NCBI GenBank assembly: GCA_022578965.1
Contig: MU400523.1
Coordinates: 62,001 to 126,000 of the forward strand
Source: Xylaria sp. FL1777
Lineage: Eukaryota > Ascomycota > Sordariomycetes > Xylariales > Xylariaceae
DNA: 64,000 nt
Direction: 5' to 3'
The first letter of the stretch is position 1; every line of letters begins with the position of its first letter. The translations under genes and the position numbers were made by a program. Of this stretch, positions 12,197 to 45,820 are shown piece after piece. The notes below the pieces were generated by a model. The model was not told the origin of the DNA. It did not search any database and saw nothing but the letters and a program-made list of their open reading frames with translations.

Positions 12197-13141
12197 ATGG
12201 CTAATCGCACCCCTTATTTCTTCCTCGCGCCAACATGGGATTACCCATCCTCTTCATCCGGGCCTATCCAACTAGGCAACATCATCACCTCCGTCAAAAC
12301 GCCCGAGCGAGCACTCTACAGGGCGCCAATGCCAGACGACTCGACCGTCTTCTCTACAGCGCAGAGCCAGGTTGAATTCTCAATAGAGAAGCTCTTTGGG
12401 GGCAAGCTCGGGATATTCACAAAGTTGTTGAACGCAATACTTGGTTTCGGCGTTGACGCGGCGGTTAACTGGGAGGTGAAGTAGGTAGCTATTATATCCA
12501 ATTCGGGCCATTACGTGCAGGCTGATGTTTCCCCTTCCATTTCCCTCGCTTATAGTGATACGTCCCACTTCATTTTTGAAAGTCTCGAGACTACTCAATT
12601 CTCCCCGGAACCTGGGTATATCCACAGCTGCGTCTCTGCCGAACCCGTGCGGCGCTACTTGGAGAAGTCGCGCTATCGCAAACCCGTATACATTATCACA
12701 GGCCTGAAGACTGCTAGGGGCGCGACGGCCCGGTCACTCAAGGCACGCACCGTTGACGGGGATATAAGTGTCGGGGCTGACGCGACGTCTTGGACCGGTG
12801 TCCCCGTAGAAGGTGGTATTGAGATTGGTAGCAAAATAGGCGGCAAGGAGCATGTATCGTGGAAAGGGACTAGTGATTTTGTGTTTGCGTTTCGGGTGCG
12901 CAAGCTCGTGGTAGAGAGGAAGACAGGTCTAGTGAGCAAAGAAGCAGATTACAAGAAAGGCGCAATGCTAGAAAGCGTGATTGAAAAGAGGAGCGAGTCC
13001 GAGTTGAGTATTACAGAGCAAGCAGTAGAAATGGATGATGACGTTGCAGGGTTCTTTGACGAAGAGTTGCCGGGGGATGACGAGTTAGTACTTCGGGCTG
13101 TCCCGAATATTCAGCGTGGTCAAACAGACATTGGGTCGTAA
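12197..13141 (+). CDS. Fungal gasdermin-like protein (HET-Q1/RCD-1 type, candidate)
   Basis: Two exons: 12197-12475 and 12521-13141, giving 299 aa. The 45-nt intron (GTGAAG...GTGCAG) is phase 0 and skips an in-frame TAG. The start is the ATG at 12197. The N-terminal part shows YFFLAPTWDYP, GPIQLGNIIT and LLNAILGFGVDAAVNWE, then HFIFESLETTQF, PVRRYLEKSRYRKPVYIITG and a Gly-rich VGADATSW segment. I associate this layout with fungal gasdermin-like proteins such as HET-Q1 and RCD-1, which bind membrane lipids and form pores that kill the cell. The last about 60 residues (after VVERKTGLVSKEADYKK) are charged and end acidic (DDDVAGFFDEELPGDDE). This could be the tail removed by a protease to activate the protein. 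The gene is tail-to-tail with a subtilisin-like protease 47 bp away, the expected partner. Family assignment is from memory of motifs plus context. A fold prediction would settle it. Confidence 0.68.
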
Positions 13142-13188
13142 TGGATATGGCTACAGCCTCTGTGTTTCTATTTCCAACCATCCTTATG

Positions 13189-16100
13189 CTATGCACTTAA
13201 AAGATCTCTAATGATATGATCAATGTACCCTTTCTCTTTCCCGAATAGGCTATCATTATATAAACTCAAGTCGATGAAATGATAGCCGTCCCGGGGCTTA
13301 TACATTTCCCCTTTCTCCGCAATCCTTTTCAGCATTGCTTCCATTCTTTCTGAGCTCTTCAATGCACTGGCCTTTTCGGGGAGATGTACTTTCACGTAAA
13401 GTAAAAGAAATGCTGCGATACCTGCAGCGATGGGCGTCGCATACGAGGTGCCGGATTTTATTTTGACAAAGGTCGGATTCGTGCTCTCCTCACACAAGTA
13501 TGCTGGCCATGCCGATTCAACACCTTCACCGATAGTCGCGAGTGTGATTCTATCATCCGTTGCGGTCGGACTGAATCCCGACCGGTTCCCATTCGGGTCG
13601 GTTGCGTGTACGGCGATGACGACCTTCTCACGAGCTGGATACGAGAGGCCGAGTCTGCCACCGTTGTTCGAGGCGGCGGCGAAGAGTAAGACGCGGTTTG
13701 CATAAGCATTCAAGAGGGCGCGTTTAAGTAGAAAGTAGTCCTCGATATTGCAATCCGGAAACCCAAAAGACATAGATATGATATCCACATTCCAAGTCAA
13801 GACAGCATGGTTGATAGCCTGGAGGTAGTGTCAATTCTAGTTCATCCTACTTTTGCAAATATGGCTGTTACTTACTGCAGCTAGAATCCTAGGGCTTGAA
13901 GGCTTGTTTTCGGCAATCTTGGCAATATATAGCTCTGCATCAGGTGCATAGTCAAGAAGCAGGCCTGCTGTGAATGTGCCGTGCCCGTTACGATCATAGA
14001 CCAAATTTATGTGATTCGTGTCAAGCCAGTTATACCTGCCCTTAATATTCTCTAGGCGTGCATCGATGTCCGGATGTGTTAAATCGATACCCGTGTCAAG
14101 AATCGCGATCTTGACCGGTGTTAAACGACTGCCGGCCGGCTCCCCAGGAATGAACTTCTCGTATACCTCTTTATACTTTGTCTTCCAGTTCAAGTAACTT
14201 TCGCATCCATAATATGAGAGTTAGCGCGCCAAATCTACCGAAACACTATCGCACAAAGTAAAGAAAACAAAGAAAGGGTACTTACGCTTCTGCAGAATGG
14301 GTCTGGGGAATGGTTTCATCATCAAAGAATCTCCGAAATTGGTAGTCGATGTCATTGATTGGTGTACAAGCAATGGTGGACATAGAAGCATGTAGGTAGG
14401 GAGGACAATAGGAAGGGACTGGTTGGGGACTTTGATAAATTTGACCTGTGTATTGAAGGCTTGACTGAGTTGTGGGAAAGATCTGGGTATAATTTGGCTC
14501 GAGAGGTTTGGGTAAAAGATTGAATGTTTGGCTGGAGGCCGGTGAGTGACCACGTGAAGTCTCTGTTGAATGTTGCTGGTTCCATGATCGAATGGTACGA
14601 TCCCAGCTCGCAAAGTCCAAATTCCGCGCGAACTCATCGAGAGAGTCAATGGAAATGGAACTGTAGGTTTGGGTTAGTTCGGTCTCGAGCGGGCGGACGA
14701 CCTCTTCATAGATTTTGGTTCTCAATGTCTGGTTGTCTAGTTTGTTGCCTTCCGTATCTTCCCAGACTGTGTGATCCAGGCACTTTTCAACTGCATAGAG
14801 GAACTGGAAATTCTCAGGTATCTCACTCCTACATTCCTGAAAGACCAAGGTTGTATCGACGTTCCTTGTGTAGTTACGGAGTCCCAAGTCTTCTCCTAAG
14901 TTGACTCCGTACCTCTGAGCTAGAACGTCAAAAGGTGTCACGAAGTATAGTTCCATTAGGATTATAGCCAATGAGATAAGTGTAGGGCATTGGTGCTGAA
15001 TCAAGTCGTCTGGATCAATGTCGTCCGGGTCTATATCGTCTAGGGCGCTGCTTTGCAACTCTCCTTCGTTACTATCACAACTGTTTTGAACCTGTCTGAG
15101 GTCATGTGTGTGGTCGGGATTCGAAAGTTGAATCTGAATGAATGGCCTTAGAGGAACAGCTGAAGAAGTTGTACGGAAGAACAACACATCAGAAGAATTC
15201 CATGTTGGCTGTAACCAGGGGGTATCGTGTAGATGTAGAACTGCAGAGCTGAGAATTACAGCAAGAATGCGTCTCGTTCTTTCAGTAAAGGAGCGCGATC
15301 CACCCTGAAGGAATTGCTCTAAGGAGATGCAATCCTTTGTCGTATCAATAAGCGAGGTACTTCTCTTAGACTGTAGCTTAAATAATTGGCCACGAATGAC
15401 TTTAAACTCAAGGCGATATTGTGTCATGGTTTGAATTTTCGCGATCGGCTCACATAAGTTTTTCACCTTCATTGACCTATTCCCTGGGCCTCTTGCCTTG
15501 GACGAAGGCTGGCTCGGTTCGTCGCTAGCTGCGAATTGGACAACAGTTTCTTTCGCGGTGTGTACACAAACCTCGTGCCAACTCTCTGTCATAGAGAGAA
15601 ACATGTCGAAGTCAAGCTCAACATCCACGTTCAAATCGAGCTCATGGTCAGGTTTCCGATAGGTGCCTAAGCCGAGCCGAGCACCAAACTCATGCATTGG
15701 ACGGCATGCGCAGCCTTTGCAGGCAGCTAGTGCTTTGAATATGGATTGTGCTGCATTCCAGACCGCGTATGGCGGTTCCCTAACTTTCCTCTGGGGGGCG
15801 AAGTCGTCTATAGTCCATTCGGAAGGATCTTCGGGATACAGCTTTCTGATCTCCTCTTCGCACATGGCCAGTGAGTGTATGAACTCATTGCGTGCCTCAG
15901 GCGTTGCGCCAAAGTCTAGATAGGATTGAATACGCTCGAGCCTCCAGTTATTGTCAACTTCCCAACGACTCTCTTCCCACCGTCGATGAAGCGCGCGTAA
16001 TCTCATGCCGACTGGGAGACTGGAAGCGGAGACACAAAAATTTCCGACGACGTTTGGAGTAACTACCACCTCTAGTTGGTTTAGTAGTCGAGTATGGAGT

Positions 16101-16282
16101 GTATCGTTTATCCCAACAATAGATTTGCGAATCCGATTCCAGTGACCTCGAATCATAGCGCAGTAGGCCATAAGGTCGGCATAAAAGAGTTTAAGCTCGT
16201 TATGCGTCTCACAAGCCCTTTGGAGCTTAGAAATCTCTTGAACTGTACGATATGCGGCGTGTACGGCGTTGAGGTCTTCCAT
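13189..16282 (-). CDS. Subtilisin-like serine protease (S8) with N-terminal DUF7580-like domain, HET-Q2-type
   Basis: Three exons on the minus strand: 16282-14286, 14197-13876 and 13818-13189, giving 982 aa. Intron phases are 2 and 0 and match; intron 1 has a CTAAC branch site. The C-terminal third is a complete S8 peptidase. The catalytic Asp lies in VKIAILDTGID (about D700), His in NGHGTFTAG (about H738) and Ser in SGTSYATPIAAG (about S898), with an oxyanion Asn in AAASNNGG. No signal peptide or propeptide is seen, so it should act in the cytosol. The first about 650 residues are helix-rich. Their later part looks like the degenerate kinase-like DUF7580 domain (VLHLHDTPWL, then LISLAIILMELYF, then AVEKCLDH). 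HET-Q2 of Podospora is a subtilisin-like protease that cleaves and activates the HET-Q1 gasdermin. The gasdermin-like neighbour makes the same role likely here. Confidence 0.85.
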
Positions 16283-16586
16283 CTCGCCAGCTAATCAATT
16301 CAGCAAAGCCATGTCTGAGAACTGAATTTTATATGTCCGCCAACGTTTCTACCGATGCGCGGTATATCTAAGGCTAGTTCGATAGGAGGAAGCAGAAGCT
16401 CGTGAAGTCAGCTGTACTTTACATCCAGTAGAAATGAGAGTTGGATGCGTCTTGGCCCCCAACTGTATGTAGCACAAACCCCGCGTCCTGAATTAATACC
16501 TAGGTAGTGAGGTAGATACGACATCACATCTATGTTGTAGTTGGCTGGAAGCTGGTATTTCTACTCCGACATCAAACCCTAAGCAG
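16283..16586. promoter_or_regulatory. Divergent promoter between protease and zinc-finger gene
   Basis: Only 304 bp separate the two start codons, so the protease and the zinc-finger protein probably share control elements. It contains a TACCTAGGTAGTGAGGTAG stretch near 16498. No ORF is seen. Confidence 0.6.
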
Positions 16587-18912
16587 ATGGCGACTACGGA
16601 TATGCCAGAGCAGCAGACTCTTGTACCGACGATCGCCGAGCGCACAGATTCATGCTTCAAATCTTTTCAGCATTGTCTCAATGAAGCTGCGACAATTCAT
16701 TCTCGGGAATTATCGTTGGTGGAAGACCAGTTGGCAAGATTCTCACTCTGGAGTTCCAACATTCGCGTCTTCGCCGCCGGGCGGGGTGCATTGGACTACC
16801 GCCTGCGGGAGGCGCCAGATGTTCAGGATGCTGTCGTTGGCGTTTTGGAAGCATTGGATTACCTTGTCCAGGACTGTGAGTATATCTCTCTGCAAAGGAT
16901 TTTTGCAATGTCCTATTAACAAGCACACGTTTCGCCTTGCTAACCTATAACCCTCCACCATAGGTTCACGTATCATCAATTCTCTGGGCCCGGGGACAAG
17001 CGAAAGCGTTTTAGCAGCCGTAGATGAGAGCCTCGACCGTTCCCTTCAAAGGATTTCGAACGAAATAAGCCTTCTCCACAGATTCTCGAACACTATACGG
17101 AGAGCAAGCAAAGAGACGCAGAGCTATAAGGCAGCGAAGACGTTTATGATCAAAGATGATGAAGGTAATAATGCGGAACCATTCTTGCTTAAATTGTTCA
17201 GTAACCACGTCCGCGATCGATTTCCTGGAGCTAGTGATGAGATCAGGCAGCGCCTGGCAAGCACCATGTTGATGCGTCGGAAAAGAGTTCTATATAGTAG
17301 GTCTCGTTATGGAAAGTCGATAGTTCGAACTCAGAAGGTCCCCTCGCAGCCTCAAGCCCGGCCTACAATACAATTGTTTAAGGAACCCGCAAACCGCGGA
17401 GTGGTTACAAGAGTGCCCCAAATCACAGCGCAATCTGTGGCTCAGACTGCTACAACGTTGTCACCGGAAAATTTCCAGAGAGCCTCCAGTCCATCGGTGG
17501 TTTCGGTATCCAAAACCGTAGCACTGAACCACCACGAGGAGGTCCGCTTCCCGCCTGCTCCATGTGGTTGGCTGAAACGTAAATATAATAAGCGTAAGAA
17601 AGAGCGGGAAAAGGAATATAAAAATGCCTTAGAGTTACTTGCGCAGCGCACAGAATCCAGTAATTCACAGGGGCCACCTCTCTCCGAAATGATCCAGGCC
17701 AAGGAGGCGATATACCAAAAAGTGCTGGCTGACGATTGGAACGAATGCCTTCGGTCAACACCGGAAATATCGTGCCCGTATTGTTTCTGCGCTTTACCAG
17801 TAGAGGATGTGGTTGACGAGAAAAAATGGAGGTATGTCATGGTCTGGATATTTCATTCGTTAAAAAATCCGATCACCATTGATACTACTGCATTGGTTCA
17901 GCAGAACACTAACCTTCATAGCTTGCACGTCATAAGCGATCTTGATCCGTATGTCTGCATGTTTCAGGAATGCGACTCACCAGAGAATGTATACAGTCAC
18001 AGCAATACCTGGTTGAAACACATGGAGGAACATGTCCGTCGATGGCGCTGTACTTCAAAATCACACAGTGAATTCATCTGTAGCACAAGGGACGAATACC
18101 TCAGCCACATGAAAGCAACGCACACGGGGAAATTTACAGACGCTCAACTTGAGGTCCTCGCTGACAGAAATGGCCGCATATTTGGTCCTATGTTCAAGTC
18201 CTGTCCGCTTTGTGGGATCGAGGAGGTCGAAGGCAGTATAGAACATCACCTAGTAGGGCATATGCGCTTTCTCGCCATCAAGTCTCTGCCCAGCTACGAA
18301 GAAGACACGGCAGGGCTGTACGAGACAGATAGCCAAGAGGATAGCGCAACGATGTCACGGTCTGGAACCCGAAGCACAATAAGAAATGACCCTGGCAAGC
18401 ACACTGAGTGGGGCGTCGACCAGCTTGAAGCCGCGGGAGCCTTGGACCTTAATTCGGCCGAACCTGTCAGGTTGGTGTCCCAACTTGACGAACGGAGTCA
18501 TATCCCCAACGCATTTGGCCCGCGCCTCGGGACGCCTCCGGGGATAAGACCATGGGTAGCAGATCGTGATCCAGCTTGTGCTATGTGCCATACCCCGGCA
18601 ACTCATAACTGCGACTGTGAAGCCAAGTTCATGGAGGCTGCAATTACGCGGAGAGAATATAGAATGCTGCAATCGGCCCGCGATAGGGTGCGACTCTGGG
18701 TCCAAGACCATGCCGAAAGTGATGTACAGGAGCATTTCGGGTCATTTCTGGATCGATCAACTGCCAGCTCTCCAGAAGAACAAGTACCCCTATCTCAACA
18801 AGCAGTAAATGAAGATCAGCAGGAGGCTATCCATCCATATGCCGAAGCGCTAGAATATTATTCTAGAATGATGAATCACAATCGCCCCTATGAGAAGTAT
18901 GTGTTGGAATAA
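16587..18912 (+). CDS. Fungal C2H2-type multi-zinc-finger protein of an incompatibility/NLR-associated family
   Basis: Two exons: 16587-16875 and 16964-18912, giving 745 aa. The intron starts GTGAGT, has CTAAC, ends CATAG and is phase 1. The N-terminus (IAERTDSCFKSFQHCL, then VEDQLARFSLWSSNIRVF, then LDYRLREAPDVQ) is a helical module that I recognise from many fungal proteins with NACHT, ankyrin or zinc-finger regions. A basic linker (KRKYNKRKKEREKEYK) follows. The middle holds several Cys/His clusters: CPYCFCALP, then DLDPYVCMFQEC, HSNTWLKHMEEHVRRWRC and FKSCPLCGIEE with HHLVGHM. These fit degenerate C2H2-type fingers. The C-terminal part has CAMCHTPATHNCDCEAKF and an EALEYYSRM segment. Function is unknown. 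Its divergent pairing with the protease suggests it belongs to the same cell-death module, possibly as sensor or regulator. That is inference. Confidence 0.78.
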
Positions 18913-20186: not shown

Positions 20187-22654
20187 CTACTTCTTCTCTC
20201 CAGCGTTCTCTCCAGCGTCCTCATCAGCTTGCTCGCCGCTCTCCAAGTTGTGCTGCTGCGCAGCCAGGTCAACATTGCGGGTAGGCGTCTGGCCAGCATT
20301 TATCGCACTAACAGACCGCACCGGTGCCCCCATCGGTGTACGGTATTGCTGGCCATATCCGGCATAGTATTGGTAACCATTGTTTTGGTCTTGAAGATAT
20401 GGCGTTGGCCAGAATGGGTTGGGAGACTGGCTTTGATAATAAGCCCCTCCACTACCTCCGTGATATGGGGTGTGCGCTCCTCCTGCGACCTGGGGTGTAG
20501 CAGGGTGATAGTTAGCCTGTCCATATTGGTTACGGTGTTGGTCACCTGGTGAGAGAGCATAGTTTGGGCTCATATATTGACTCGGCTGATAAGCCTGGTT
20601 CGGACTGACATATTGAGCTTGGCTATAACCTTCGGGGCTGGTAAAGGTGCTGGGCTGGTAACCCTGATTGGGACTGGCGAATGTGCGACCCTGCTGGTAG
20701 GTTGTTGGTGTTGCAAAAGCTCGACGCTGGGAGAAATGAACGGGTCGGTAATCGGGATTTGGGGACACAGTCTGGGATGCTGCCTGATCGAAATCAACAC
20801 TACTGGATGAAGCGATAACATCGCGACCAACTGCAATGGAACGAGCGGGTGTAGCAGGAACAGTCTCGGCACTTCTATCAGTAGCATCGGCGAACGTAGA
20901 CATGGCGGTCTCGCCACGGTTGCCAGAGAAATTCTCAGCACCCCGGAACTGACCACCTTGGTCTGCACACTTCTTTTTTTCCACACGAATGCGATTGTTG
21001 ACTAAAATTGTTCCTCGCTAATTTAAGTGTTAGGTTATGTAGCCCCATCAATGAACGGGAACCCGAACTTACTAGGTGGTCAACAGCCATAAGCGCCTCA
21101 TCGGGACGCGCGTACTCTACAAATGCAAACACTGTAGGGCGTCCGCCTTCTAATTTTACACTGAATTAGTTATCGGTTCCAAGAAATGACAGCTTCGACT
21201 TACCATTTCGGGGTTCTTTGCGAATAATCTGGACTCTTTCAACTGCGCCTGCTTTGGAGGCCGCGTGGCGAAGGACTTCTTCAATATTCTCGACATTGTG
21301 TGGCAAGTTTCCGACATAGATTGATCGACGATCAACTTCGTATCGTGCGAGGTAATTAGAATAGTGGTTACTGTGAGATGAGTTCGCTTTCTTCAGATCG
21401 TATGCTACAACACCATACTCCTCATGGTATCGGTAGGCCTACTATCCTGTTAGCTGTGGATGTATGAAGCCTCCAAAACAACAACATACCGAGATGATAT
21501 CGCGGCCTGGGTCAAAATGCATGTATTCAACAAACACTGCGCCGGGAAGTCTCATAGCATTCACAGCTTCCTCGTGAAGCGGTTCTAGCTTCGAAATCTC
21601 TCCAAACTGCAAAAGATGACTGCGGGCTTCAATGACGTTAACCTGATGACCTTCACGATTGAACATCACATAACAGCCTTGTATGAGGTTAGCAAGCTCT
21701 CCTATAGCTCTAGGAGCTAGACGAAATCTTACGGTTCGCTTTCACCATCTCAGTTCGGCAGGGTCGTCCCTCGACGAGCAATCCTTTGCCCTCTACCTGC
21801 GCTTTCTGGGCATGCTTAGAATCCTGATTTTACAGTTAGTCGTAGCCGATGAACATGTGTAGAGATACAGACCGTATATTGGCAGAATGCAAAAGGCATG
21901 TTTTTAGGGTCGCGGCGAATCTTAACAAAGACCGGGCCAAATGCAGAGAAGGCCTTGGTGACAGCAACTTCCAACACAGTATCGGACTTCGACTCAGGCA
22001 AACTATCCATTGATAATTAGTAACCGGGAATTGCATACTAATACTTAGATACCCACTTAGCAACAAAAATGCAAGCCTCGGCAGGATAGTAGGTCTGGGC
22101 ATCGACACCTTGAACTAAATGTCGTCGCTCTGCAGGAGACGGCTGGCTATGGATCGGAACAACGGGCTGAGCTTCAGAGGTCGCCAACTGATTGATGATA
22201 GGAGCTGGTCCGGTAAGCAGATGCTGGGTCATCGACGCGCTAGTACTAAAGACTTCCTCGTCGCCGTGGGGTGGCTTTCCGATCTGGAAGTTTTGCTGCT
22301 GAAGTTTGTCACAGAGGCTCTCAACGAAGTCATCGGAACTAGTGACCGGATGAGCCAGCTTAGCAATACGGGAAGTACCCATCTCGCTGCTTTTATCAAA
22401 GTTAGCTGGGTGATGTAATGGGAAAGTGTCTATTCAGAGCGTACATCGATCGCTGATGGGTATTGTCGTTGACAGATAAGTCACTCAAGTCGGCATTGAG
22501 GGGAGCGCCTCCTACTCTACTAATTAGCATATACCGCATCCCCGGAGCTTTGACACTGACCACCTGAGGAATCGGATGAAAACGAAGCCGAGCGAGTACG
22601 ACGACTAGAGATGCCATGGGCGGCCGGACCACCCTTGGGACCGAGGCTTGCCAT
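20187..22654 (-). CDS. Multi-RRM RNA-binding protein
   Basis: Nine exons on the minus strand: 22654-22561, 22511-22445, 22389-22057, 22002-21873, 21823-21733, 21677-21490, 21438-21204, 21149-21073 and 21017-20187, giving 681 aa. Every intron is short with matching phase. A first RRM starts ACIFVANLPES and continues FGPVFVKIRRD, then MPFAFCQYT. A second follows GRPCRTEMVKANRCYVMF with FGEIS and GAVFVEYMHFDP. A third starts DRRSIYVGNLPHN and continues ERVQIIRKEP, TVFAFVEYARPDEA and GTILVNNRIRVEKKK. After about residue 420 the protein is a Gln/Tyr/Pro/Ser-rich low-complexity tail with repeated QSPN/SPNQ-YQPS units, typical of proteins that join RNA granules. The start is the ATG at 22654, because an in-frame TAG lies upstream. 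No pathway can be assigned. A role in mRNA control is likely. Confidence 0.85.
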
Positions 22655-25600
22655 CTCGGGATGTAGACTTGAAGAACTATAGGCAGAGTCAATATCACCT
22701 CTAATATACTCTAGAGCTTTAGCTTGATAACGATGATGTAACAGCTTGGAGAACCCCTTCCTGGCCAAGTCTATTACAGAGCGATACAAGATCCTCTAGA
22801 TTTAGGGCGTGTCTAAGACGGTTTGTAGTATTGTTAAGGTACCCTTGTCCCCAATAATGATAGAGATGAATAAGAACATGCAACACTTACTCGGTCTTGT
22901 TATTGCAACTTGTGCAAGACGTATGTGTGATCTAGGTAGAGATGGTCAGATTCCACAGCGAGCGCTAGTCGTAGGCGATGAGTTCGAAAGGAAACAAAGA
23001 GTCGGAAATAGAGAATCAAGTGGTTTGTAAGTCGACAGAGCCCGATTCTGTAGCTACTACTAACTTGGGGTATGTATGTATAGGGAGATAATAGGACACC
23101 CTGAACTTGAGTAGAAGATGAGAATCGAGGATCGGGTTAAGAGAGAACCCGGGAAATTGCCAAAGGGAAGATGAACTAGGTGGTGGCCATATGGTTACGG
23201 CACAACTGAAATGCCAGAAGAGAAGGCCACTCAGTCGGAAGGGATTGGAAAATGGAGTCGCAAATTGCGATCGCGCTGAGTATCACGGACCGCCCAGCAC
23301 TTGCTGATGGCAATATGAGTCGATATGGGGTTAGATGGATGTTGATGATGGTCCATGCCAGTCAACGAAGATCTGGAAGGATGGGAAGGACGAAAGGAAA
23401 ACGATAAATGTGGAAAAAATGACACGGATACGACTCTTGAGAAAAGTTTCATCTAAGCCAATGATTAAGAGTGCAGCGGCAAATAGACTAGGGAGAAGAC
23501 TAGTGATAGGCTTAGGGCGCAGTCATGCTGACTCGGTGAGAAAGGGGGAAGCAGTGCAGCAATGCTAGAAGGAGATACAACTTACCGAGATGTGAAGATG
23601 CGACGTACCCAGACGGCGAGAGACGCTAATAGCTCGCTGTCAATATCACATGCAACGAGACGGATGAATAAGCGGGCAGTGGAGGTAGCGGACGAGACGG
23701 GGCAGGTAATGATGACGGTGAAGGGGAGCAATGCTGTATATCGGACAAGGCTGAGATATCGACAGTCCGGCAAGGTTCCGAGGGTCGTGCCGATTCTAGG
23801 CGTGATTGCGAACGGGCTGAGGACTCAGGACGGCGCCGACTGGCCACGGATGCGCTCGAGTATGGAGAGAAGATAGTCAAAAAGAAGGAAGGGAAGAAGG
23901 TCTCACCAAGGACGGCGGTTCGGCGTTGGTTATTGGCTGCGGTGCAAGTGCAAGTGCAAGTGCAGGACTTCGCGTGTTGGCAATAAGCACGTCAGTGTAA
24001 AGTGAGGGCTGAGATGGACAGAGACAGAAGAAAAAAGAGAGTTGTGCAGGCGGTGACGAGGCTACACAGTGGCACAAGGAAGATAAGGGGGGTTAGGTTG
24101 TATGTGGGAGGATGGGCTAGGGGGAAAATAGGTACGCGTGGGAACAGAGGGGGGCAGGAGACACGCTGGTGACTGCCACCTGCGCGTGTTTCGAGAGTAA
24201 GAAGGTGCAGTGTACAAAAGAGTAAGTTCCTCGGCGTCCTCCTTCCCGTCCCTTTCCTTTCCATGTACTGCTGTGGTGTTCTTCGGGCAGATAAAGTGTA
24301 GGGCGATCACCAATACATCAGAAATAACTTACCAGAGAGGGATCTTGTTGTTGTGTGTTGACTTAGTCGATAGACTGATAGATACAACAAGAAGGAAGAA
24401 GGGAGAAGGATAGAAAGCGAGGGAGATGGATGTGTTGAGAGCGTCAAGTGTGCTGAGAAACAGTAGAAAGATGGATCTGTGAGAAGGAAGAGTTATATAG
24501 TGCCGCAGGAAGAGAAAGGGGGAGGGGAGGGGAAACAAGACGGGGCCGTGTAAGTGATTGCCTTGAAGTTTTCACGAACCATCAAGGGGATGAGGTGACT
24601 TGACCCGGTTCAGATGGATTCGTTGGTACAATAGAAATAACAATATGTTGACCCTGAGGGCCAGTATAATATAGGGGTACAGGACTACAAAAGAGATCTT
24701 CAAGTATTTACGGACCTGTGCGTAAGTATTTTGATGTAGCTACTACTCTTAGATGTCGCTTGATATATTGATAGAGAGCTAAGTCTCGTAGACTTGACCT
24801 CGTCAGTATTGACAACACAAAGGCAATAGATAATACAGCTAAGAAATCCTTGGAAATATTGCTGATACTAAGTTCATGGTTCTAGCTACATTGATATAGC
24901 AGTCATAATGAGTCGTGAAGAACTGGGACTCCTGCTGAAGATGCCTGGTGATCTAAGGCTTGTACAGATCAATATCTTACGATTTACAATGCTACGCTAC
25001 AATACTTTGGTCCCACGTCTCGCCGATATTTAGGCAACTTCTTCACGACATTTTCTTAACATAATAGCATGTACCAGTGACAAGGCAAGGGAAAGTTGGT
25101 TGTGGCATAGGTACTCGTTAAACTGTCAGCAAGGCATAAAGATACATGGGCCACTTAAAATAATACTTGTTATCGAAGTAAATAGATATTCTAGCATGTA
25201 TCTTGACACGTAGGCGGATAGGGTTGGGACCATGGCCTCTGATTTACAGGTTCTATCCATCCTGTGACATGTACTTGCCGTCCTTGTAGCAAACGCGCAT
25301 ATACGTCACGGAAATGCGGAGAATAAAGAAAACGACTTGAAAAGTTGCGGAGATCGAGGGACGAGGGGCTGCTGGCTAGGTTTATAGCCCGTGTGATTAG
25401 TTTCCGGGGTTTATTAGGATTTGTGCTCGAAAACCAAGGGGTCGGACGAAATAGATGTCATTAAATTAAGGCTACAGAAAGAACAGTTGAGCCGAAGGCA
25501 CTAATCATAGTTAGGCATTACTAGTTAAATAGTCTATTATTAATAGCTAATGTGATAACTGTGTAGCAAATGGGCCTGCGGCAAGGATGCCTGGTGTTTT

Positions 25601-27777
25601 GAATTTGAGAAGCGTTATGCGTCTAACAATTACGCAATTAAGCTAAGTGTTCCTTAAAGAGAGAACAGGAACCAAAGGATCACGAGCTTTTCTTTAGCTA
25701 AAACTAGAGTTCTACAGTTCACTGGAAATTTCACAAATAGCAGTTCACTGTGAACATGAGTCTCATATTTGCAAGCCAAAATAACATACAGAGAAGAGGA
25801 TAAATGCGATAATGCTAGTACTAATTATATACTTCTTTCAACAGAATCTACGTTATGAGTAAGCTTTTCTATGTGATAGGGAGCAATTCGGGGTTTGGTG
25901 GCAAGAATAATAGCAACTTGAACTAATCTCAACTCAATATTGAGTCAAAAAAGAATGCTAATATCAATGTAAAGAGAAGACGTGACGTTGGCTAGGTCAC
26001 GTGGTGCACAAGACATTGTTTGCTCTCAATACCTTCTGGGAATTTTGTCTTAAGATTGTGAGAGTTATCATGAAACTACTAAAACAATCAATGAAGGTTG
26101 GGTTAGGGGGGCAAATATAAGCCAAAGTGCTACGGAATCAGTTTTAGGTCTATAGAACTGTTCGTGTCTTGGCACTCATAGAAACATTTTAGTTGTAGGG
26201 GACAGAAGGAGAAAATAAGTCTCTCTCCGTCATCATTTTACATAGTGACAGAGTAAAGATGGTCTCAGTTTCTTTTCAGATCTAAAAGAATCCCCAAGGA
26301 CAAAGGTCATAATAGGAACCCACCTTATGAGAAAGCTTCTTTAAGGAGAATGTTGGGAAACAAGCGGTGTGGTAGACTAAAGAACCATGGGCCTTTTCTT
26401 AATACTACAAAGTTCTTAGCTTTACTCCCAATAGTAGCTCAATTACTTTTGTTCAGATCGTCATTGGCTGCCAAATAAACAAATGAAAACACATAACGAT
26501 AAATGTAGCAAATAGTACTTAGTTTCGGCTTAGGAAGGACAAACTTTAGGGACCTAGCCCATTCATTAGAATATTTTCTTCTTTTCCATTCTAATCATAA
26601 CGCACTATGTTTCCTAGATACTTCCTCGTACCTCTTGATGACGGGCCGCGTGTTCTATCGAGTCGCTTCCCCTTGGCTGTCAAACGTCAGGGTAAACCCA
26701 CTTGATTAAGTTATGGCGATACAGCACTATGTGAATAACAGGGGTCCATGCTATATACCATTATACGAAAAAGGTCCTGTGGAAGTAATAATCACCTTCC
26801 ACTTAGTGTATTAGAGATCCCTATCTAGGTAGGGGACGGAGTCTGACCTGGGAGCGGTGTTAGGACTTAGATTTGAGGCTCTAATTTGCGAAGTTCGAAA
26901 TTAAGGAAGCGGTACGACCGAAATTACTTTCCTTGTGTCAACCACTAAGTTGATCTACCACGAGGCTGCAAGTTCTTAGGTTATCATATGGGTAAAGTGA
27001 GATAACGGACAAAGCGTCTCCCGGCTTACTTAATTGGTAGCACAAATCTAGTGGCCAGCTACTTAGATATTAACGAGCATGATGTAGGATCTTGACATTT
27101 TTAAGCCCCTTATTCCGTGTCTTCCACAAATTCCATAGTAATTGAAAAAGGGGTGTAAAGGAGAAGCAGGCTCAGAACAACCGCGCAATAGTCCTGGCCA
27201 GATTCACATGAAACTGAGAGGGGTGTGCAGCCTTACTTCGGGAAATTTCCGCAAAGGCTGGGGCTTACGAGGCGCATGCATATCATGCATTCGAGAACCA
27301 ATCTGCAAGCAATGCCGCCCAGGTTACATCTAGGCAGACACATATATTGGCCTGCTATTGGAAGTGTTGGGTGGCTGGTAAATGTTGATAGTGGCTGGTA
27401 CCTACGCCCCACACCCGTCTACCATACAAAACATATGTACTCTCGATGGCATACCGCAGTATTTATACTCATTATCCCAATATGTTACGTTTATTCACAG
27501 CCTATCGTTCGACATTTGTTTGCCCTGAGAGCCTCATACTACCCCGCTCTCCCTTAGCTAGAGTAGTGAGAAATAAGTTCCCAGCTTTATTCTCTTCAAG
27601 ATCTTATTACCTTAGCATTTGTGATTCAATGCAGCTGGACAAAAAATAAGCTGGTAATCCATATTCCTGAGAAGAGACCACGTGAAGGTCTCGACCCAAA
27701 TTACCTAGCACAGCTATAATTATAAAGTACGATCCTTGAAACACTTGGCGTCTTCATTTATAGCATTCTTGATCAAC
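22655..27777. other. Long gene-poor stretch upstream of RRM gene
   Basis: About 5.1 kb without a supported gene. From 22.7 to 24.5 kb the minus strand is pyrimidine-rich (many CT/TC runs at 24.1-24.5 kb), as seen in long promoters or 5' leaders of the RRM gene. A (GTGCAA)n run of about four copies lies at 23941-23965. From 24.6 to 27.7 kb the sequence is AT-rich with many TA steps and stops in all frames. The ORFs at 27142-27649 are short and featureless. Confidence 0.45.
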
Positions 27778-37482: not shown

Positions 37483-39018
37483 ATGTCATACTCTTATGGA
37501 GGAAGCTCCTTGCTGCATCACACAGGCAAGATGGGTTCCGAGCCAGAGCCATATGCAGAAGGCTCCCCAAGCCTCATCACAGATCTGTCAGGGGAAAAAT
37601 GGACACCACTCTTCCGAAAGAAATGTTCATTCGATCCGGGAAATTTCTTTACAGCCATGGATAATCTTATTCGCAACCCGAATATTAATTCGTCCTGGCT
37701 CTTTCGTGCAGATATTTTAATCGAGCAAGATTCTATGCAGGCTCTTACGCAGAATGCCCCAGCCGATGAGACGGGTCCCAAGCCCATCGTCGTCCAATTC
37801 ACGGGTTTCCATCTAGACAAACTGCTTGTTCGAAGGCTGATACCGAGGAATCCTCAGAGAGACCCGCCCTTAGACCAAACATGCTTGATCTACCACAGTT
37901 GTGGAACAGGTGAGACGGAGACTACTTCTTCGATGGTTGTCTATAAACCCCATATCTCTTCCCATTCCGATGTGCCATTCTACCATCCCAAGGTGAAGGC
38001 TATCGCATTCCTCCATGAGTGGAATTCAAGGATCGGCGAAGGTGCCGTTTCAATTCATTACAATTTCTTTGACGAGTATGGTTCGTCTCCAAAGTTAGCC
38101 AGGACTGGGCTTCATCTGATATCGACACTACATAAACATGGTGAGGGGGACAAAGCAGGATACGTGAAACGAGTTCAGCATGATACTATTATACCTCAAG
38201 CTACTGTTCAGTCTACTTACGCAAGGCTTAAGAAGAAATACGCACGCAAGCTTGTAGAAGGATGGGTCGAGGTCACAGACCCAACAAAACACTGTTTTGA
38301 GGACCTAGCGATTGCGGCATTCCTTATCGAGCTATGGGCTCAGATGTATCACGATTCTCTATTTCCAGGCTTTGTGGACATTGGATGTGGTAATGGCCTG
38401 CTGGTTTACATCCTGCGCCAAGAGGGCTATTCAGGATGGGGCTTCGACGCACGAAGGCGCAAGTCCTGGAACAACTTCACAGACAGAGTTGACCCGGCTT
38501 CCGAAAACGATACAAATGAAAGCCTTCGTCAACTAGTTCTCCTCCCAGCGGTTCTACAGGATCAGGGTCACCAAGATGGGGAGCTTGCTCAGCGGATCCA
38601 TGATGGCAGGTTTCCAAAGGGAACCTTTATCATCTCAAATCATGCAGATGAGCTTACACCATGGACACCCATCCTTGCTACTATCTCGGACTGTCCCTTT
38701 ATGATGATACCATGTTGCAGTCACAACTTGTCGGGAGCTAAGTTTAGGGCAGCGGCACCCAAGGAAAAGGGCAAGTCTGCATCGGCATACTCGTCTCTTG
38801 TGGAATGGGTGAAGCAAATCGCCCATGACTGCGGTTGGGAGGTCGAAACAGAAATGCTGAGGATACCAAGTACACGAAACACAGGAATCATAGGAAGACG
38901 CCGTCTAGAGAACCTAGTTTCTGCTGACATCCCAGCTATTTTGAGAAAATATGGTGGCACCAGCGGATATGTAGACAATGCTATCAAGCTTACAAAGACC
39001 GCTCCGAGAGGTCATTAA
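37483..39018 (+). CDS. TRM44: tRNA (uridine-2'-O)-methyltransferase Trm44
   Basis: A single exon of 511 aa. The start could be the ATG at 37483 or the in-frame ATG at 37531; I list the first. Blocks seen: WTPLFRKKCSFDPGNFF, NLIRNPNINSSWLFRADIL, then LVEGWVEVTDPTKHCFEDLA, the AdoMet-binding FVDIGCGNGLLVYIL followed by GWGFDARRRKSW, then FIISNHADELTPWTPILA and FMMIPCCSHNLSGAKF. Trm44 makes 2'-O-methyluridine at position 44 of tRNA-Ser in the cytosol. It is unspliced, unlike nearly all neighbours. Confidence 0.93.
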   Translation: MSYSYGGSSLLHHTGKMGSEPEPYAEGSPSLITDLSGEKWTPLFRKKCSFDPGNFFTAMDNLIRNPNINSSWLFRADILIEQDSMQALTQNAPADETGPKPIVVQFTGFHLDKLLVRRLIPRNPQRDPPLDQTCLIYHSCGTGETETTSSMVVYKPHISSHSDVPFYHPKVKAIAFLHEWNSRIGEGAVSIHYNFFDEYGSSPKLARTGLHLISTLHKHGEGDKAGYVKRVQHDTIIPQATVQSTYARLKKKYARKLVEGWVEVTDPTKHCFEDLAIAAFLIELWAQMYHDSLFPGFVDIGCGNGLLVYILRQEGYSGWGFDARRRKSWNNFTDRVDPASENDTNESLRQLVLLPAVLQDQGHQDGELAQRIHDGRFPKGTFIISNHADELTPWTPILATISDCPFMMIPCCSHNLSGAKFRAAAPKEKGKSASAYSSLVEWVKQIAHDCGWEVETEMLRIPSTRNTGIIGRRRLENLVSADIPAILRKYGGTSGYVDNAIKLTKTAPRGH

Positions 39019-39457
39019 TGATAACTACAGTATAAAAACGACTATGAGTGAACAAGCCACAGTATAGAAGGTCGGACACATTAAAATCGGCAGTAGGTAA
39101 GACATGAAAGAGGAATTGGTTAGGTGTATCTGGCCTCGTGGCTCTTATGATGCACGCTGTGTCGTTCCAAAACCTTAGATACCTAGGTACCTAGTAGGTA
39201 GCAGAGGTCCACTACAGGTGCTGTATGTGTACTGCAGCGGTGTGGTTCAGCGCAAATACACTATACGTTCACGTGACTGACCCACCGACCGACTTGCAAC
39301 GTCGCTGCTTTCTGAGGCCGCTAGCCTGCACTAGCATGGCGGATTATGTGTAGCCTGTCCTGACCTCCAAAACCTACCACCTAGATGCGAACACCTACTA
39401 GAGACGTACGACATCTTCGACTTTCCTAGGCACCCGGAGAGCTGTCTCGCCGCCACC
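39019..39457. promoter_or_regulatory. SEC21 upstream region with TAGGTACC motif
   Basis: A 439-bp gap containing ttagatacctaggtacctag at about 39175 and a following taggtag run, like those in other gaps of this window. No gene is seen. Confidence 0.5.
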
Positions 39458-42450
39458 ATGAGTTACGGCAAGAAAGATGAAGATGCTGACCTTGGCTTGG
39501 TCAAGGTCGATCGCACCCAAGTATTTCAAGAAGGTGTGTAACTCCGATTCGTCACCAAAACCCCTAAAAGCCACCTTCAAGGATGACCGCTAAATGGGAT
39601 GTGCAGCCCGATTGTTCAACAGTTCACCGATCCAGCCGCGACGATGCCGTATCCTGCTCACGAAGATAGCTCTCCTCCTCTACACGGGGGAGAAGTTCCC
39701 TACCAATGAAGCCACCACCCTTTTCTTCGGTATCTCGAAGCTATTCCAGAACAAGGATGCCAGCTTGCGCCAGATGGTTCACCTTGTGATCAAGGAGCTT
39801 GCCAACTCGGCAGAGGACATCATTATGGTGACGAGCACAATTATGAAGGACACAGGAGGTAGCACAGATGCCATATATCGGCCAAACGCGATAAGGGCAC
39901 TGTGCCGTATCATTGATGTTGGTCTACTTGGATACCGAACTTCAGTCTCTCATTTTGTTGGCTAACAGCCGCAGGCGACCACCGTCCAATCAATTGAGCG
40001 AGTCATGAAGACAGCAATTGTCGACAAAAACCCCTCTGTCTCCTCCGCAGCCCTCGTTTCGTCCTACCATCTCCTCCCGATTGCCAAGGATGTTGTTCGG
40101 CGGTGGCAGTCCGAGACCCAAGAGGCTGCTGCCTCAACCAAGTCCTCCGGGGGATTCTCCCTTGGATTCTCTTCCTCCTCCAGCTCTGTTCCCGTAAACA
40201 ATTCGACGATGACACAGTATCATGCTATTGGCCTATTATACCAAATGAGATCGCACGACAGGATGGCTTTGGTCAAGATGGTTCAGCAGTTCGGTGCTGC
40301 TGGAGCTGTCAAGAGTCCGGCCGCTATCGTAATGTTGGTGAGATTGGCTGCCCAGTTGGCTGAAGAAGATCAATCACTGCGAAAACCGATGATGCAACTA
40401 CTTGATGGGTGGTTAAGACACAAGAGCGAGATGGTTAATTTTGAAGCTGCCAAGGCAATCTGCGACATGAGGGACGTGACGGATGCTGAGGTCACGCAAG
40501 CTGTTCATGTGCTGCAGCTATTCTTGTCTTCCCCGAGAGCGGTCACCAAATTTGCTGCTCTGCGAATTCTTCACAACTTCGCCTCTTTCAAACCTCAAGC
40601 TGTCAATGTCTGCAACCCGGATATCGAAGCGCTCATTTCAAATAGCAACCGATCGATTGCCACGTTTGCTATCACTACACTTTTGAAAACTGGCAACGAA
40701 GCCAGCGTTGACAGGCTGATGAAACAAATCTCGAGCTTTATGTCGGAAATCACAGATGAGTTCAAGATAACTATAGTCGAAGCGATCCGCACTCTCTGTC
40801 TCAAATTCCCTAGCAAGCAAGCGGGAATGCTGGCTTTTCTCAGTGGAATTCTACGTGATGAAGGAGGTTTTGAATTTAAGCGAGCCGTTGTCGAGAGCAT
40901 GTTTGATCTCATCAAATTCGTTCCTGACTCAAAGGAGGATGCTCTTGCTCACCTCTGCGAGTTTATCGAAGACTGCGAATTCACAAAGTTAGCTGTCCGG
41001 ATCCTACATCTAATCGGTCTTGAGGGCCCTAAGACTTCTCAACCAACGAAGTATATTCGCTATATATACAACAGAGTCGTCCTTGAGAACGCCATCGTCC
41101 GGGCTGCCGCTGTCACTGCCTTAGCTAAATTTGGTGTGGGGCAAAAGGACCCAGAAGTGAAGCGAAGTGTCGATGTTCTCCTAACAAGATGCTTAGATGA
41201 CGTTGATGACGAAGTTCGTGATCGTGCGGCGCTCAATCTTGGATTGATGCATGAAGAAGACGATGTGGGCGAACGTTTCATTAAGAATGGTGGGTATTAT
41301 GCCACAACAAAAGTTGCTTTTCGTGCTAACTCTAAGATCAGAAAATATGTTCTCACTGTCCTATTTTGAGCATCAACTTGTTACATATGTGACCTCAGAT
41401 GACAAGTCGGCATTTGATATTCCGTTTGACATCAGCAAAATTCCCGTGGTTACGCGGGAGCAAGCAGACGCAGAAGACCGAACAAAGAAGCTTACGGCAA
41501 CGACACCGTCGCTCAAACCCCCCAAGACTGGACCCTCCAAGGCTCCATCAACCGGGGCCGAGGCGCAAGCATCAGCTGCTGCGGCTGCACAGAAATACGC
41601 CCAGGAGCTTATGTCGATATCTTACATGAAGGAATTCGGCGGTCTTCTCAAGTCATCGCCCGTTGTTGAACTCACCGAAGCCGAAACCGAATACGTAGTA
41701 ACTGTGGTCAAACACATTTTCAAAGAGCACATTGTCCTACAGTATGAGATCAAAAACACACTACCCGCAACTGTTCTAGAAAACGTCTCAGTAGTCGCAA
41801 CACCATCCGACGAGGAGGAGCTTGAGGAAGTCTTCATTCTGCCCACGGAAAAACTCGAGACGGACGAGCCTGGCAAGGTCTATGTGGCATTTAAGAAAAC
41901 GGGTGGCGAAGGATCTCTACCTACTAGTTCCTTCTCCAATGTACTCAAGTTCACAAGCAAAGAAATCGATCCCACGACAAATGAACCTGAAGATACTGGA
42001 TATGACGATGAGTACGAGGTGGCAGAATTTGACCTGGCTGGCAGCGACTACGTAATACCCACCTTCGCCGGCAATTTCAATCATATATGGGAGCAAGTCG
42101 GAGCAGCGGGCGAAGAGGCAGAGGAGACATTACAACTATCTACTATGAAGAGTATCGCAGGTATGTATTTCCATTTCAGCGGCGTAATTGGCCAGATGAC
42201 TGATGTAATCGAAACAGACGCTACAGAACAGCTCGCCAAGACTCTCTCATTACAGCCGCTAGAGGGCACAGATGTACCCATTAGCCAGACAACACACCAG
42301 CTCAAATTGCTGGGCAAGACGGTCAATGGTGGCAGAGTAGTGGCGAATGTCAGGATGGCGTATTCGTCGAAATCAGGGGTGACGACCAAAATCACCGTAC
42401 GCAGCGAGGAAGAAAATGTTGCGGCGATGATAGTAGCGTCGGTTGCGTAA
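39458..42450 (+). CDS. SEC21: Coatomer (COPI) gamma subunit
   Basis: Five exons: 39458-39533, 39607-39917, 39975-41289, 41342-42160 and 42218-42450, giving 917 aa. Intron phases 1, 0, 1 and 1 match. The last intron (42161-42217, GTATGT...AACAG) is 57 nt and has no stop, so a naive ORF reads straight through it. Splicing restores the conserved MKSIADATEQLAKTLSLQPL. The N-terminal two thirds are adaptin-type HEAT repeats (EARLFNSSPIQPRRCRILLT, LTKIALLLYTGEKF, then FIKNENMFSLSYFEHQLV). A Pro/Ala-rich linker and the gamma-COP appendage domain follow, ending KITVRSEEENVAAMIVASVA. The subunit is part of the F-subcomplex of COPI coats that move cargo from Golgi back to ER. Confidence 0.95.
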
Positions 42451-43289
42451 TGATGTTTTCTAAGCTGGAGGCGTTATCGTTCTGCAAAATCTGGCTAGCG
42501 AGATTCGTTTCGATTTCGAGGATATATGCATAGTAGAGATGTCGGGGTTGGAATGGCCTTTTCTCAAACAGTGCACTCAGTCATGAAGATGGCTCAAGGG
42601 AGCTGGATAAGGGGACGTAATCGGTCAAGTCTCTAAGGCGATGAGCCATGCCAACACTGCAATGGAGACGAAAGACTCAGAAAGATTGCACTCCAAAAGA
42701 TGTTGCTTCGACATCAATAGTATCAAGTAAGCAACATAGTTAATTCATTCATATTTTGTATATGTAACTTCCTCTCTATAAGCTTTCGTGTGTCTTATCG
42801 TCCATTTTCAGGGGTAAGTCTGTCATAATCCAACCAACAGGATCTGCTGACCGATACAGAGTACATGTACAAATTGGTACGTACCGAGATTTAGTCTGGT
42901 GCTTTAATTGTGTGCGGCACGCGATTTGACGCGCCCTGGCCCACTTTAATGACGTTTTGTTCGCATTGAATTCGTTGGAAACCCTGACCAGCGCAATTAA
43001 GAAAAAATAAAGGCCAAATAATCTAGTATACGACTGAAACAACACCATGTCCATGGCCAACAACCACCTTCATTTTCTTAGTCTTTGATCCCCAGAGTCG
43101 AGAGGCTAGAATGAAAACTCAAAGCTCCATCTACGAGCACTACGACAGCTAGCGCACAAGCTTCACAGGCTACTATATTGTACCTATTGCGATCTACGAA
43201 ACGACCGATACTATCGATACTATCGATAACATATCCTACCAATCCCATCCTAACCTTTATGAACCAGGCCTGCGACAGCGTCGTTCAAG
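42451..43289. other. Intergenic between SEC21 and the phosphotransferase gene
   Basis: No supported gene. A minus-strand 95-aa ORF (42776-43063) has no recognisable features. Confidence 0.5.
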
Positions 43290-44696
43290 ATGGTGTATGT
43301 ACGGCAGGAATACCTGCCGAATCTCAAGGCGTACAAATACAGCGGCGTCGACCACTCTTTAACGTCCAAGTATATCCTCAAGCCCTTCTACACCCATGTC
43401 GTCATCAAATGCTTTCCCATGTGGATGGCCCCGAACTTGATCACCTTGTCCGGGTTCATGTTCGTCGTCGCAAACTTCCTCACCCTGCTCTGGTACAATC
43501 CCACTCTAGACCAGGATTGTCCGTCATGGGTCTACTACAGTTGGGCCGCTGGCTTGTTCATATACCAGACATTCGATGCCGTCGACGGCTCGCAAGCGTA
43601 TGCTACAAGCCATCTCTTTCTCTCTCCTTGTCACTATGCACGTTTCGCAGGCTGACTTAAGTTATACGACAGGCGACGAACACACCAGAGCGGCCCTTTG
43701 GGTGAATTATTTGACCACGGCGTTGACGCCCTCAATACCTCGCTTGAATGTCTTATCTTTGCTGCCTCGCAAAACATGGGGCAAAGCTGGTTTACAGTCA
43801 TCAGTGTTTTCGCCTGTATGCGGTTCCTATTTCTTTCAACTACGTGTATATGGTGATTGCCTTGCTTTGTTACTGACACACTCGTAGCGCTCGGCACCTT
43901 TTACGTTCAGACCTGGGAAGAATACCACACCAAGACCCTGACCCTAGGCATCGTAAATGGCCCGGTCGAAGGCATCTTAGCTCTAGTCTTAGTTTACGCT
44001 TTCACTGGCTTCATGGGCGGCGCCTCGTTCTGGAATCAATCTGTGCTAGCTACGATTGGTGTGTCTAGGAATCTCGGCATCCCCGACTTCCTGTATGGCC
44101 TGTCATTTACACAATGTTACTTAGCCCAAGGTGCTATTGTCATGGTGTACAACACAGTCGAGAGTGCGCGCAACGTCATCAAGGCCCGTCGCGCTCGTGG
44201 TGATCGTAGCCGTGGCGCTCTACTTGGTCTCGTCCCGCTGTTCGGCACCTGGTTCCTCGTTTCTGCGTACCTATATCTGCAGCCGCTGATCCGCACACAG
44301 CACCTCGTACCTTTCGTCATGTTCGCCGGCCTCGTGAACGCATATAGCGTGGGGCAAATGATCACGGCACATCTCGTTAAGCTAGATTTCCCGTACTGGA
44401 ATATCCTGGCCTTACCACTGAGCTTTGGCATAGTCGACTCGCTCGGGCCCATCCTGAAAGAGCACGTAGGCTGGGCCTCGGGCTGGCCCAGCGCTCTCGG
44501 CGACGACGTTTACCAGGTTGCTTTCATGTTCTGCATGTTAGGCACGGCAGTCGGCGTCTACGGCTCGTTTGTCGTCGATGTCATTGTGACTATTTGTGAC
44601 TATCTCGATATTTGGTGTTTGACCATCAAGCATCCATATGTGGAGGTGGCAGAACACATAGCCAACGGAGACACAAACAGGAAAAAGGTCAATTAG
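43290..44696 (+). CDS. CPT1: Choline/ethanolamine phosphotransferase
   Basis: Three exons: 43290-43597, 43673-43815 and 43888-44696, giving 419 aa. Phases 2 and 1 match. Splicing creates the full CDP-alcohol phosphotransferase signature DG-X2-AR-X8-G-X3-D-X3-D: DAVDGSQ joined to ARRTHQSGPLGELFDHGVDA. The intron thus lies inside the catalytic motif. The N-terminus shows YKYSGVDHSLTSKYILKPFY and WMAPNLITLSGF. About eight to ten hydrophobic helices follow. The enzyme transfers phosphocholine or phosphoethanolamine from the CDP form to diacylglycerol, the last step of the Kennedy pathway, at the ER or Golgi. Sequence alone does not separate CPT1 from EPT1 preference. Confidence 0.93.
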
Positions 44697-45820
44697 ATCT
44701 GAATTGGCGCCACATATACTATATGGAAATGAATTTGGGGTTCTTTATACGATGTCTTGACGTGCTGGGGGTTCTTATAATATATTGGCGAGGCGTAACG
44801 ATGGTTTCTTACTTACGTATATATCTGCAAGCTGAAACAGCGGAAGTGTTTCCAGGGGTGTAATGGCTTTATGTCTTGATGAGGACGAATCTGATGCGAA
44901 TGGATGATGGATAGGCAAGGCGAAGGTCTCGGAAAGTTGACTGAGGGTGTTGTCATAGATATTTCCGGTGTTGAGAACTTCGAGAGGCTAGGAAAACTTG
45001 GGGGTATATATGCTGTGTGTGTATCATAATAGATACATGGAGATATGGGGTACGCATGAACACACTTAATCGCCTTACAACTTCTTATTATCTGAGACTA
45101 CTATAATAATTGCTATTATCTAATGAGATATTCGATTGATTCGATCATATGGAGGAGTTGAGATATTTGGTAATGAATACAGCGAGATCATGCGAATCCT
45201 TTCATGTCGTGTCTATGTGCTAGCTACCTTATATTACGATCTATACCCTGTCTGTCTGCCTGTACATCCGCCATGGTCTGCTTGTATACGAGCTTACTGA
45301 GAGCACTGATCCACGTTATATGTACATACTTTTTCAGCATCTGCATTTCATCCGATCACCTGTTGTCTGTAACCTGTAGCCGTACGTAAATTGCCGTATA
45401 CACAATTAGCCCATGACCGTCTCGAGTCAGAGGTCACTTTTAAGCTCTCAAGCACGAGATTATATGACGCTCAAAAGAATAGCATATTTCTGAGACCGTC
45501 GCCAATCTCCGTAACCGTGACTGTGATCGTCTTGCAACCCCCCCTTCGTGCTAGGGTAGGTAATCCGATCCTAGCCGTGGCCCCTCCATTCCTACCCATG
45601 TCTACTAAGGTCAGCATTGTAGATATATCACGTGATGTGGTAAAGAGTTGTCTCCACCCCCAGACAGACATGGGTAGGGTACCTAGGTACCCACCTGCGG
45701 CATGTGGCTTGCACCAAGCGCGCCAGAAGCCGCGGCCAACAAGCACAACAACATTGGGTCATCACCAGTCCTCGAAACCATCGACGCCGGTCACACCACC
45801 CCAGCCTGAGAAGACATACC
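44697..45820. other. Intergenic upstream of PAC1
   Basis: 1.1 kb with no supported gene. A ggtacctaggtacccacc stretch is at 45677-45694. A 161-aa ORF (45391-45876) overlaps PAC1 exon 1 in another frame and is rejected. Confidence 0.5.

Follow-up and report, generated by a model that had tools for sequence, protein, structure and literature searches.

A zinc-finger gene beside a gasdermin and a DUF7580-S8 protease in Xylaria sp. FL1777: a candidate cell-death switch

Does a zinc-finger gene standing next to a gasdermin gene and a protease gene belong to the same cell-death system, and if so, in what role? This question is raised by a locus of Xylaria sp. FL1777 (genome, 58.7 Mb) that lies on contig C18 (529,211 bases), within the stretch of 64,000 nucleotides that was analysed (the window). 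On the forward strand, a fungal gasdermin gene (12197..13141; exons 12197-12480 and 12556-13141; 289 aa) is followed tail to tail by a DUF7580-S8 protease gene on the reverse strand (13189..16282; exons 16282-14286, 14197-13876 and 13818-13189; 982 aa), which in turn stands head to head with the zinc-finger gene on the forward strand (16587..18912; exons 16587-16875, 16964-17831 and 17922-18912; 715 aa). We found that the zinc-finger gene tracks DUF7580 and not the gasdermin, an association that looks new, and we lean slightly toward the view that the three genes encode one inducible cell-death switch.

The sequence-only reading of this DNA had placed the gasdermin and protease genes 47 bp apart and the protease and zinc-finger genes 304 bp apart. 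Both distances hold in the corrected gene models, between the coding ends of the first pair (13142..13188) and between the starts of the second (16283..16586), where a shared promoter is possible. The corrected models are identical to the Xylaria sp. FL1777 records P0001 (gasdermin), P0240 (protease) and P0121 (zinc-finger protein). A gasdermin intron at 12476-12520, which underlies a 299-aa model, was rejected, as the intron at 12481-12555 yields the recorded protein; likewise, a 745-aa zinc-finger model was dropped in favour of a second intron at 17832-17921, which gives the length of P0121. The Pfam scan, some of the searches of the genome and for relatives, and alignment A1 were run on the earlier, uncorrected models.

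Recurrence of the arrangement and exchange of the effector

Relatives of the zinc-finger protein were located at eight loci of the Xylaria genome, and DUF7580 matches at 10 places. Divergent zinc-finger/DUF7580 pairs were observed on C18 (the window), C30, C3, C22, C27 and C319, their match edges lying 0.8-3.4 kb apart; divergent pairing therefore covers 6 of the 10 DUF7580 matches and 6 of the 8 zinc-finger loci. C30 duplicates the trio of the window, with a zinc-finger gene divergent from a DUF7580-S8 gene and a gasdermin gene tail to tail with the latter (open frames approximately 70 bp apart). The 10-kb stretches holding the pairs on C3, C22 and C27 gave no profile match to either S8 or phosphorylase, so that some zinc-finger/DUF7580 pairs stand without a recognised effector. 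Two gasdermin queries each located two loci in the genome, a search that remoter gasdermins may escape. On C319 (G000:C319:7347-10865), there is another DUF7580-S8 gene, with a 263-aa open frame (P0360) approximately 200 bp away tail to tail, and a zinc-finger/DUF7580 pair lies just beyond it (L036:7347-9878, L037:77-865). The similarity of P0360 to gasdermins is weak (profile E 0.14 with filters off; hhalign 37%), and no match to solved structures was found; as a putative third gasdermin of this genome, it is only a lead.

We then surveyed other fungi, covering 120 listed gasdermins (on 119 contigs), 120 of 168 DUF7580 proteins and 119 zinc-finger proteins; the counts below hold among these matches listed. 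Neighbourhood was judged from shared contigs and gene-tag numbers, orientation being known only in Xylaria. All three families were present on 18 contigs, the window's own included, whereas two families shared a contig in the following combinations: gasdermin and DUF7580 (13), gasdermin and zinc-finger (6), and DUF7580 and zinc-finger (20). The gene numbers of the trio were consecutive in all four genomes that could be ordered, namely Scytalidium, Cudoniella, Hypoxylon texense and Neonectria ditissima, which comprise two Leotiomycetes and two Sordariomycetes. Gasdermin and DUF7580 tags were one apart in eight of nine orderable cases (two apart in the ninth), and DUF7580 and zinc-finger tags in 11 of 12 (12 apart in the twelfth). 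The trio that the sequence-only reading had picked out thus recurs, both at C30 and in other fungi. In Nemania sp. NC0429, two gasdermin relatives (P0003 and P0015) share a single contig (300,488 bases) with a DUF7580-S8 protein and a zinc-finger protein.

The domain that follows DUF7580 is not constant. In Fusarium-type relatives, a nucleoside-phosphorylase domain (PNP_UDP, PF01048) occupies the place of S8, and the listed DUF7580 proteins comprised 64 with S8, 21 with the phosphorylase, 4 with a GTPase (with or without the phosphorylase) and 31 with neither, many of which are intron-blind metagenome calls. A gasdermin was present on the contigs of 28 S8 types and 3 neither types, and of none of the GTPase types and 0 of the 21 phosphorylase types, where gasdermins too divergent for listing could be overlooked. 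A zinc-finger gene, by comparison, was present on the contigs of 25 S8 types, 11 phosphorylase types, no GTPase type and 2 neither types. The earlier suggestion that the zinc-finger protein is a third part of the module gains support here, as its gene pairs repeatedly with DUF7580, even beside a phosphorylase effector. Since the same gene adjoins a Fusarium partner in which a predicted nucleotide-cutting enzyme replaces the protease part, the zinc-finger protein is likely to be a sensor. A FastTree phylogeny built on the N-terminal parts of 89 DUF7580 proteins set all non-S8 types apart from the rest by a single branch (support 99), so that the exchange was one event and not many; the midpoint root leaves the direction of exchange unfixed. 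Some Fusarium genomes that encode a phosphorylase-type protein have a gasdermin relative elsewhere (FGADI_685 versus FGADI_9530; ACHAP8_011810 versus ACHAP8_008956). In four proteins of Fusarium graminearum and F. austroamericanum (P0343-P0346), DUF7580 is accompanied by GTPase-type domains (PF01926, PF04548) and in some also by the phosphorylase, which makes a further effector type.

The three proteins

By its sequence, the first gene is a member of the fungal gasdermin family. A Pfam scan of the protein returned no match, and the identity rests on the match of the family profile (26 sequences) to solved gasdermin structures: RCD-1-1 (8jyz, E 4.2e-13 and 5.2e-13), HET-Q1 (9uv9, E 1.5e-7) and, more remotely, bacterial gasdermins (E 0.017 and 0.021). 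Seven distinct sequences in solved structures were matched, every one a gasdermin. The profile search thus upholds the gasdermin relationship proposed from the sequence. Relatives at E ≤ 0.001 numbered 149, and nearly all of the 120 listed are fungal hypothetical proteins; for two of these (P0033 and P0088), a precomputed match to PF26164 of a newer Pfam exists, while our own Pfam scan returned none.

The motif KGAML (residues 229-233) directly precedes a 56-residue acidic C-terminal tail (residues 234-289; 12971..13138, forward strand; 6.2 kDa), which is the predicted inhibitory piece and carries a net charge of -12, compared with +5 for the body. Among the 120 listed relatives, 86 hold the motif and a tail of more than 25 residues, and the tail is acidic in all 86 (median, 53 residues). 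The solved HET-Q1 pore chain aligns with the window gasdermin up to just before the acidic tail, and HET-Q1 is reported to lose a 40-residue tail after F238 (PMC10989679, in excerpt). By analogy, we infer that the S8 domain of the neighbouring protease would cut the window gasdermin and remove its tail.

The protease comprises an N-terminal helical part (residues 5-148; 15839..16270) seen in an AlphaFold2 model, a DUF7580 domain (residues 175-538; 14669..15760; Pfam E 1.3e-35) and an S8 peptidase domain (residues 694-913; 13399..14115; Pfam E 9.8e-31), all on the reverse strand. The helical part has no family match of its own, and its profile found no match in the Xylaria loci examined. The sequence-only reading had described a DUF7580-like region, an intact S8 triad and the lack of a signal peptide, and each of these stands. 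The triad is complete, with D700 (codon 14095-14097), H738 (13981-13983) and S898 (13444-13446), plus N824 (13666-13668), on the reverse strand; in an alignment of 80 relatives, D and H were kept in 63 of the 63 sequences that reach those columns, and S and N in 62 of 62. The best solved match of the S8 profile was an intracellular serine protease of the subtilisin kind (7y6m, 7.6e-31), and the N-terminus was not hydrophobic in a crude hydropathy test (best 19-residue Kyte-Doolittle mean of 0.11 over the first 25 windows). An S8 domain with its triad is thus encoded adjoining the gasdermin, as in HET-Q2-like (Q2L) proteases.

DUF7580 is probably a pseudokinase, judging from profile comparisons and one alignment column. 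Compared directly with kinases, the DUF7580 family of the window gave no significant result (hhalign 2%), whereas a paralogue family matched kinases at 92.6% and the window's family at 98%. No Pkinase match was found in the 39 DUF7580 proteins scanned. In a paralogue on C135, Pkinase overlaps DUF7580 at E 6.9e-5, below the family cut-off, and MLKL is the top match of this paralogue among solved structures (E 0.032). The assignment as a pseudokinase follows from the column placed by eye as the HRD catalytic Asp, which holds Asp in 2 of 78 DUF7580 sequences. A fold search with the whole protease model showed no kinase among its rows, which were filled by subtilisins, so that the DUF7580 part was barely probed. 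The C135 paralogue (L043:4170-5792) has an MLKL-like layout, in which a weak HeLo match is followed by DUF7580 overlapping the kinase match, and on C8 (L041:2916-5291) and C63 (L042:4784-7078), a clear protein kinase domain precedes DUF7580 in one open frame. A literature search on DUF7580, with most subscription papers outside its reach, found no paper.

The zinc-finger protein has an N-terminal helical bundle (residues 11-149; 16617..17121, forward strand; AlphaFold2 model and VIA-align) and a conserved Cys/His block (residues 367-499; 17773..18261, forward strand), in which C367, C370, H388, H419, H423, C429, C480, C483 and H499 are invariant among 60 aligned relatives. Its earlier description as a multi-zinc-finger protein agrees with these residues but less well with Pfam, which at E ≤ 0.05 recognised a C2H2 finger in few of the 60. 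The N-terminus matched HeLo weakly (E 0.36), with no HeLo found among the 60 relatives, and comparison with the N-terminal bundle of the protease revealed no relation (hhalign 2%). The zinc-finger profile gave a single chance-level match (E 0.1) against solved structures. At C30, the open frame of the zinc-finger protein also encodes ankyrin repeats, and extra domains among the 119 listed relatives were phosphatase (PF00149; 6), annexin (2), WD40 (1) and TPR-type (1).

Outside the locus, the window contains a 265-aa open frame without a Pfam match (20187-20984, reverse strand), rich in repeated Tyr/Gln/Ser/Pro segments of the type YxSPNxxYQPS, a region in which the GC skew (0.21-0.24 at 22001-26000) is well above that of the remainder, and, rightward at 37483-47366, ordinary genes for a methyltransferase, adaptin-like and coatomer gamma parts and a WD40 protein. 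No further cell-death family was found among 10 open frames scanned, including genes right of the locus.

Proposed switch and alternative explanations

Because the gasdermin and the protease share one genome, the protease must be held inactive, and we infer that DUF7580 and the zinc-finger protein do this. In the switch that we favour, the sensor of the trigger would be the zinc-finger protein, with its N-terminal bundle and finger block serving for docking and its exchangeable C-terminus for recognition. The signal would be relayed by DUF7580, probably a kinase fold without the catalytic Asp, which would restrain the protease as long as the state of its partner stays unchanged. The S8 domain would then cut the gasdermin after about residue 230-245, as HET-Q2 acts on HET-Q1, and the gasdermin, freed of its acidic tail of approximately 6 kDa, would form pores and kill the cell. 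In the Fusarium form, what this two-protein sensor sets free would be an enzyme that destroys nucleotides and not a pore. Stated generally, and with slightly less than even confidence, the system may be a fungal split receptor, in which a zinc-finger protein with a swappable recognition C-terminus and, paired head to head with it, an MLKL-like dead kinase, DUF7580, form a constant core; the swappable effector of the latter would be either a gasdermin-firing protease or a nucleotide-destroying phosphorylase.

The locus might instead be a plain two-gene cluster of a gasdermin and a HET-Q2-like protease, with the zinc-finger protein as a transcription factor acting via the shared 304-bp promoter region. 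Such a role would suit the head-to-head promoter, the conserved Cys/His block and two short runs of basic residues, at positions 201 and 306 of the protein, but we regard it as unlikely: the finger block fits C2H2 models poorly, the relatives bear ankyrin, annexin, WD40 or phosphatase domains and not known activation domains, and the gene still accompanies DUF7580 when a phosphorylase serves as effector. Two observations speak for the view that the genes are neighbours through inheritance only, the zinc-finger protein being unrelated to the protease: 82 of the 119 gasdermin contigs held neither partner among the matches listed, which also weighs against the three-part switch, and two zinc-finger loci on C1 had no DUF7580 match. 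However, six separate divergent pairs in one genome, as well as adjoining tags in both Sordariomycetes and Leotiomycetes, would be hard to keep without selection, and we consider this explanation improbable. Least probable is a het-Q-like allorecognition locus causing death upon fusion of unlike strains. HET-Q1 and HET-Q2, which belong to the two families found here, do act in allorecognition, with one strain bringing the gasdermin and the other an active protease (PMC10989679, in excerpt). Here both genes are in one genome, so that the simple scheme would fit only with a restrained protease.

Relation to known systems and significance

The proposed three-part switch would extend a described arrangement. 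According to excerpts of the literature, protease genes lie near approximately 80% of fungal gasdermin genes and S8 proteases near approximately 63%, Q2L proteins are often multidomain (PMC10197012), and fungal gasdermins are also said to have proteases with kinase-like domains fused to them and to lie in clusters of two or three genes (PMC12881547); the gasdermin/protease pair is of this already described cluster kind. In HET-Q1/HET-Q2 of Podospora anserina, the gasdermin has a similar length (278 aa versus 289 aa here) and a short C-terminal tail, and is activated by a subtilisin-like S8 protease, the role predicted here, although HET-Q2 has 388 aa (PMC10989679), compared with 982 aa and a DUF7580 in front in the window protease, and although a zinc-finger gene accompanies the pair at our locus and one genome carries both members of the pair. 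Neurospora RCD-1, which the gasdermin profile matches best among solved structures, differs in being protease-free and acting when two allelic forms meet (PMC12881547). The PNP_UDP module has been described as an ATP-acting immune effector (PMC12881547), and the fungal NLRs and immune proteins that carry it resemble the Fusarium-type DUF7580 proteins, in which it takes the S8 place; unlike PNP_UDP-bearing NLRs, none of the 39 DUF7580 proteins scanned had an NLR domain.

In the known Q2L clusters, as excerpted, recognition repeats are fused to the protease, whereas here they would sit on the separate zinc-finger protein. A word count of the passages available on fungal gasdermins and Q2L proteins gave no mention of a zinc-finger partner, and a search combining gasdermin and zinc finger, with most subscription papers outside its reach, returned unrelated papers only. 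Within the literature covered, no description was found of a zinc-finger gene that constantly partners DUF7580 in two types of effector protein; this partner looks new and probably makes the pair a three-part switch.

How the proteases that fire fungal gasdermins are activated is called a major open question in the passages seen of PMC12881547. The zinc-finger gene, which follows the DUF7580 core across the change of effector, offers a concrete candidate for that sensor, and the ankyrin-bearing second trio provides a matched counterpart to the window trio for domain comparison. If the split receptor is true, this immune switch would be modular in what it recognises as well as in how it responds.
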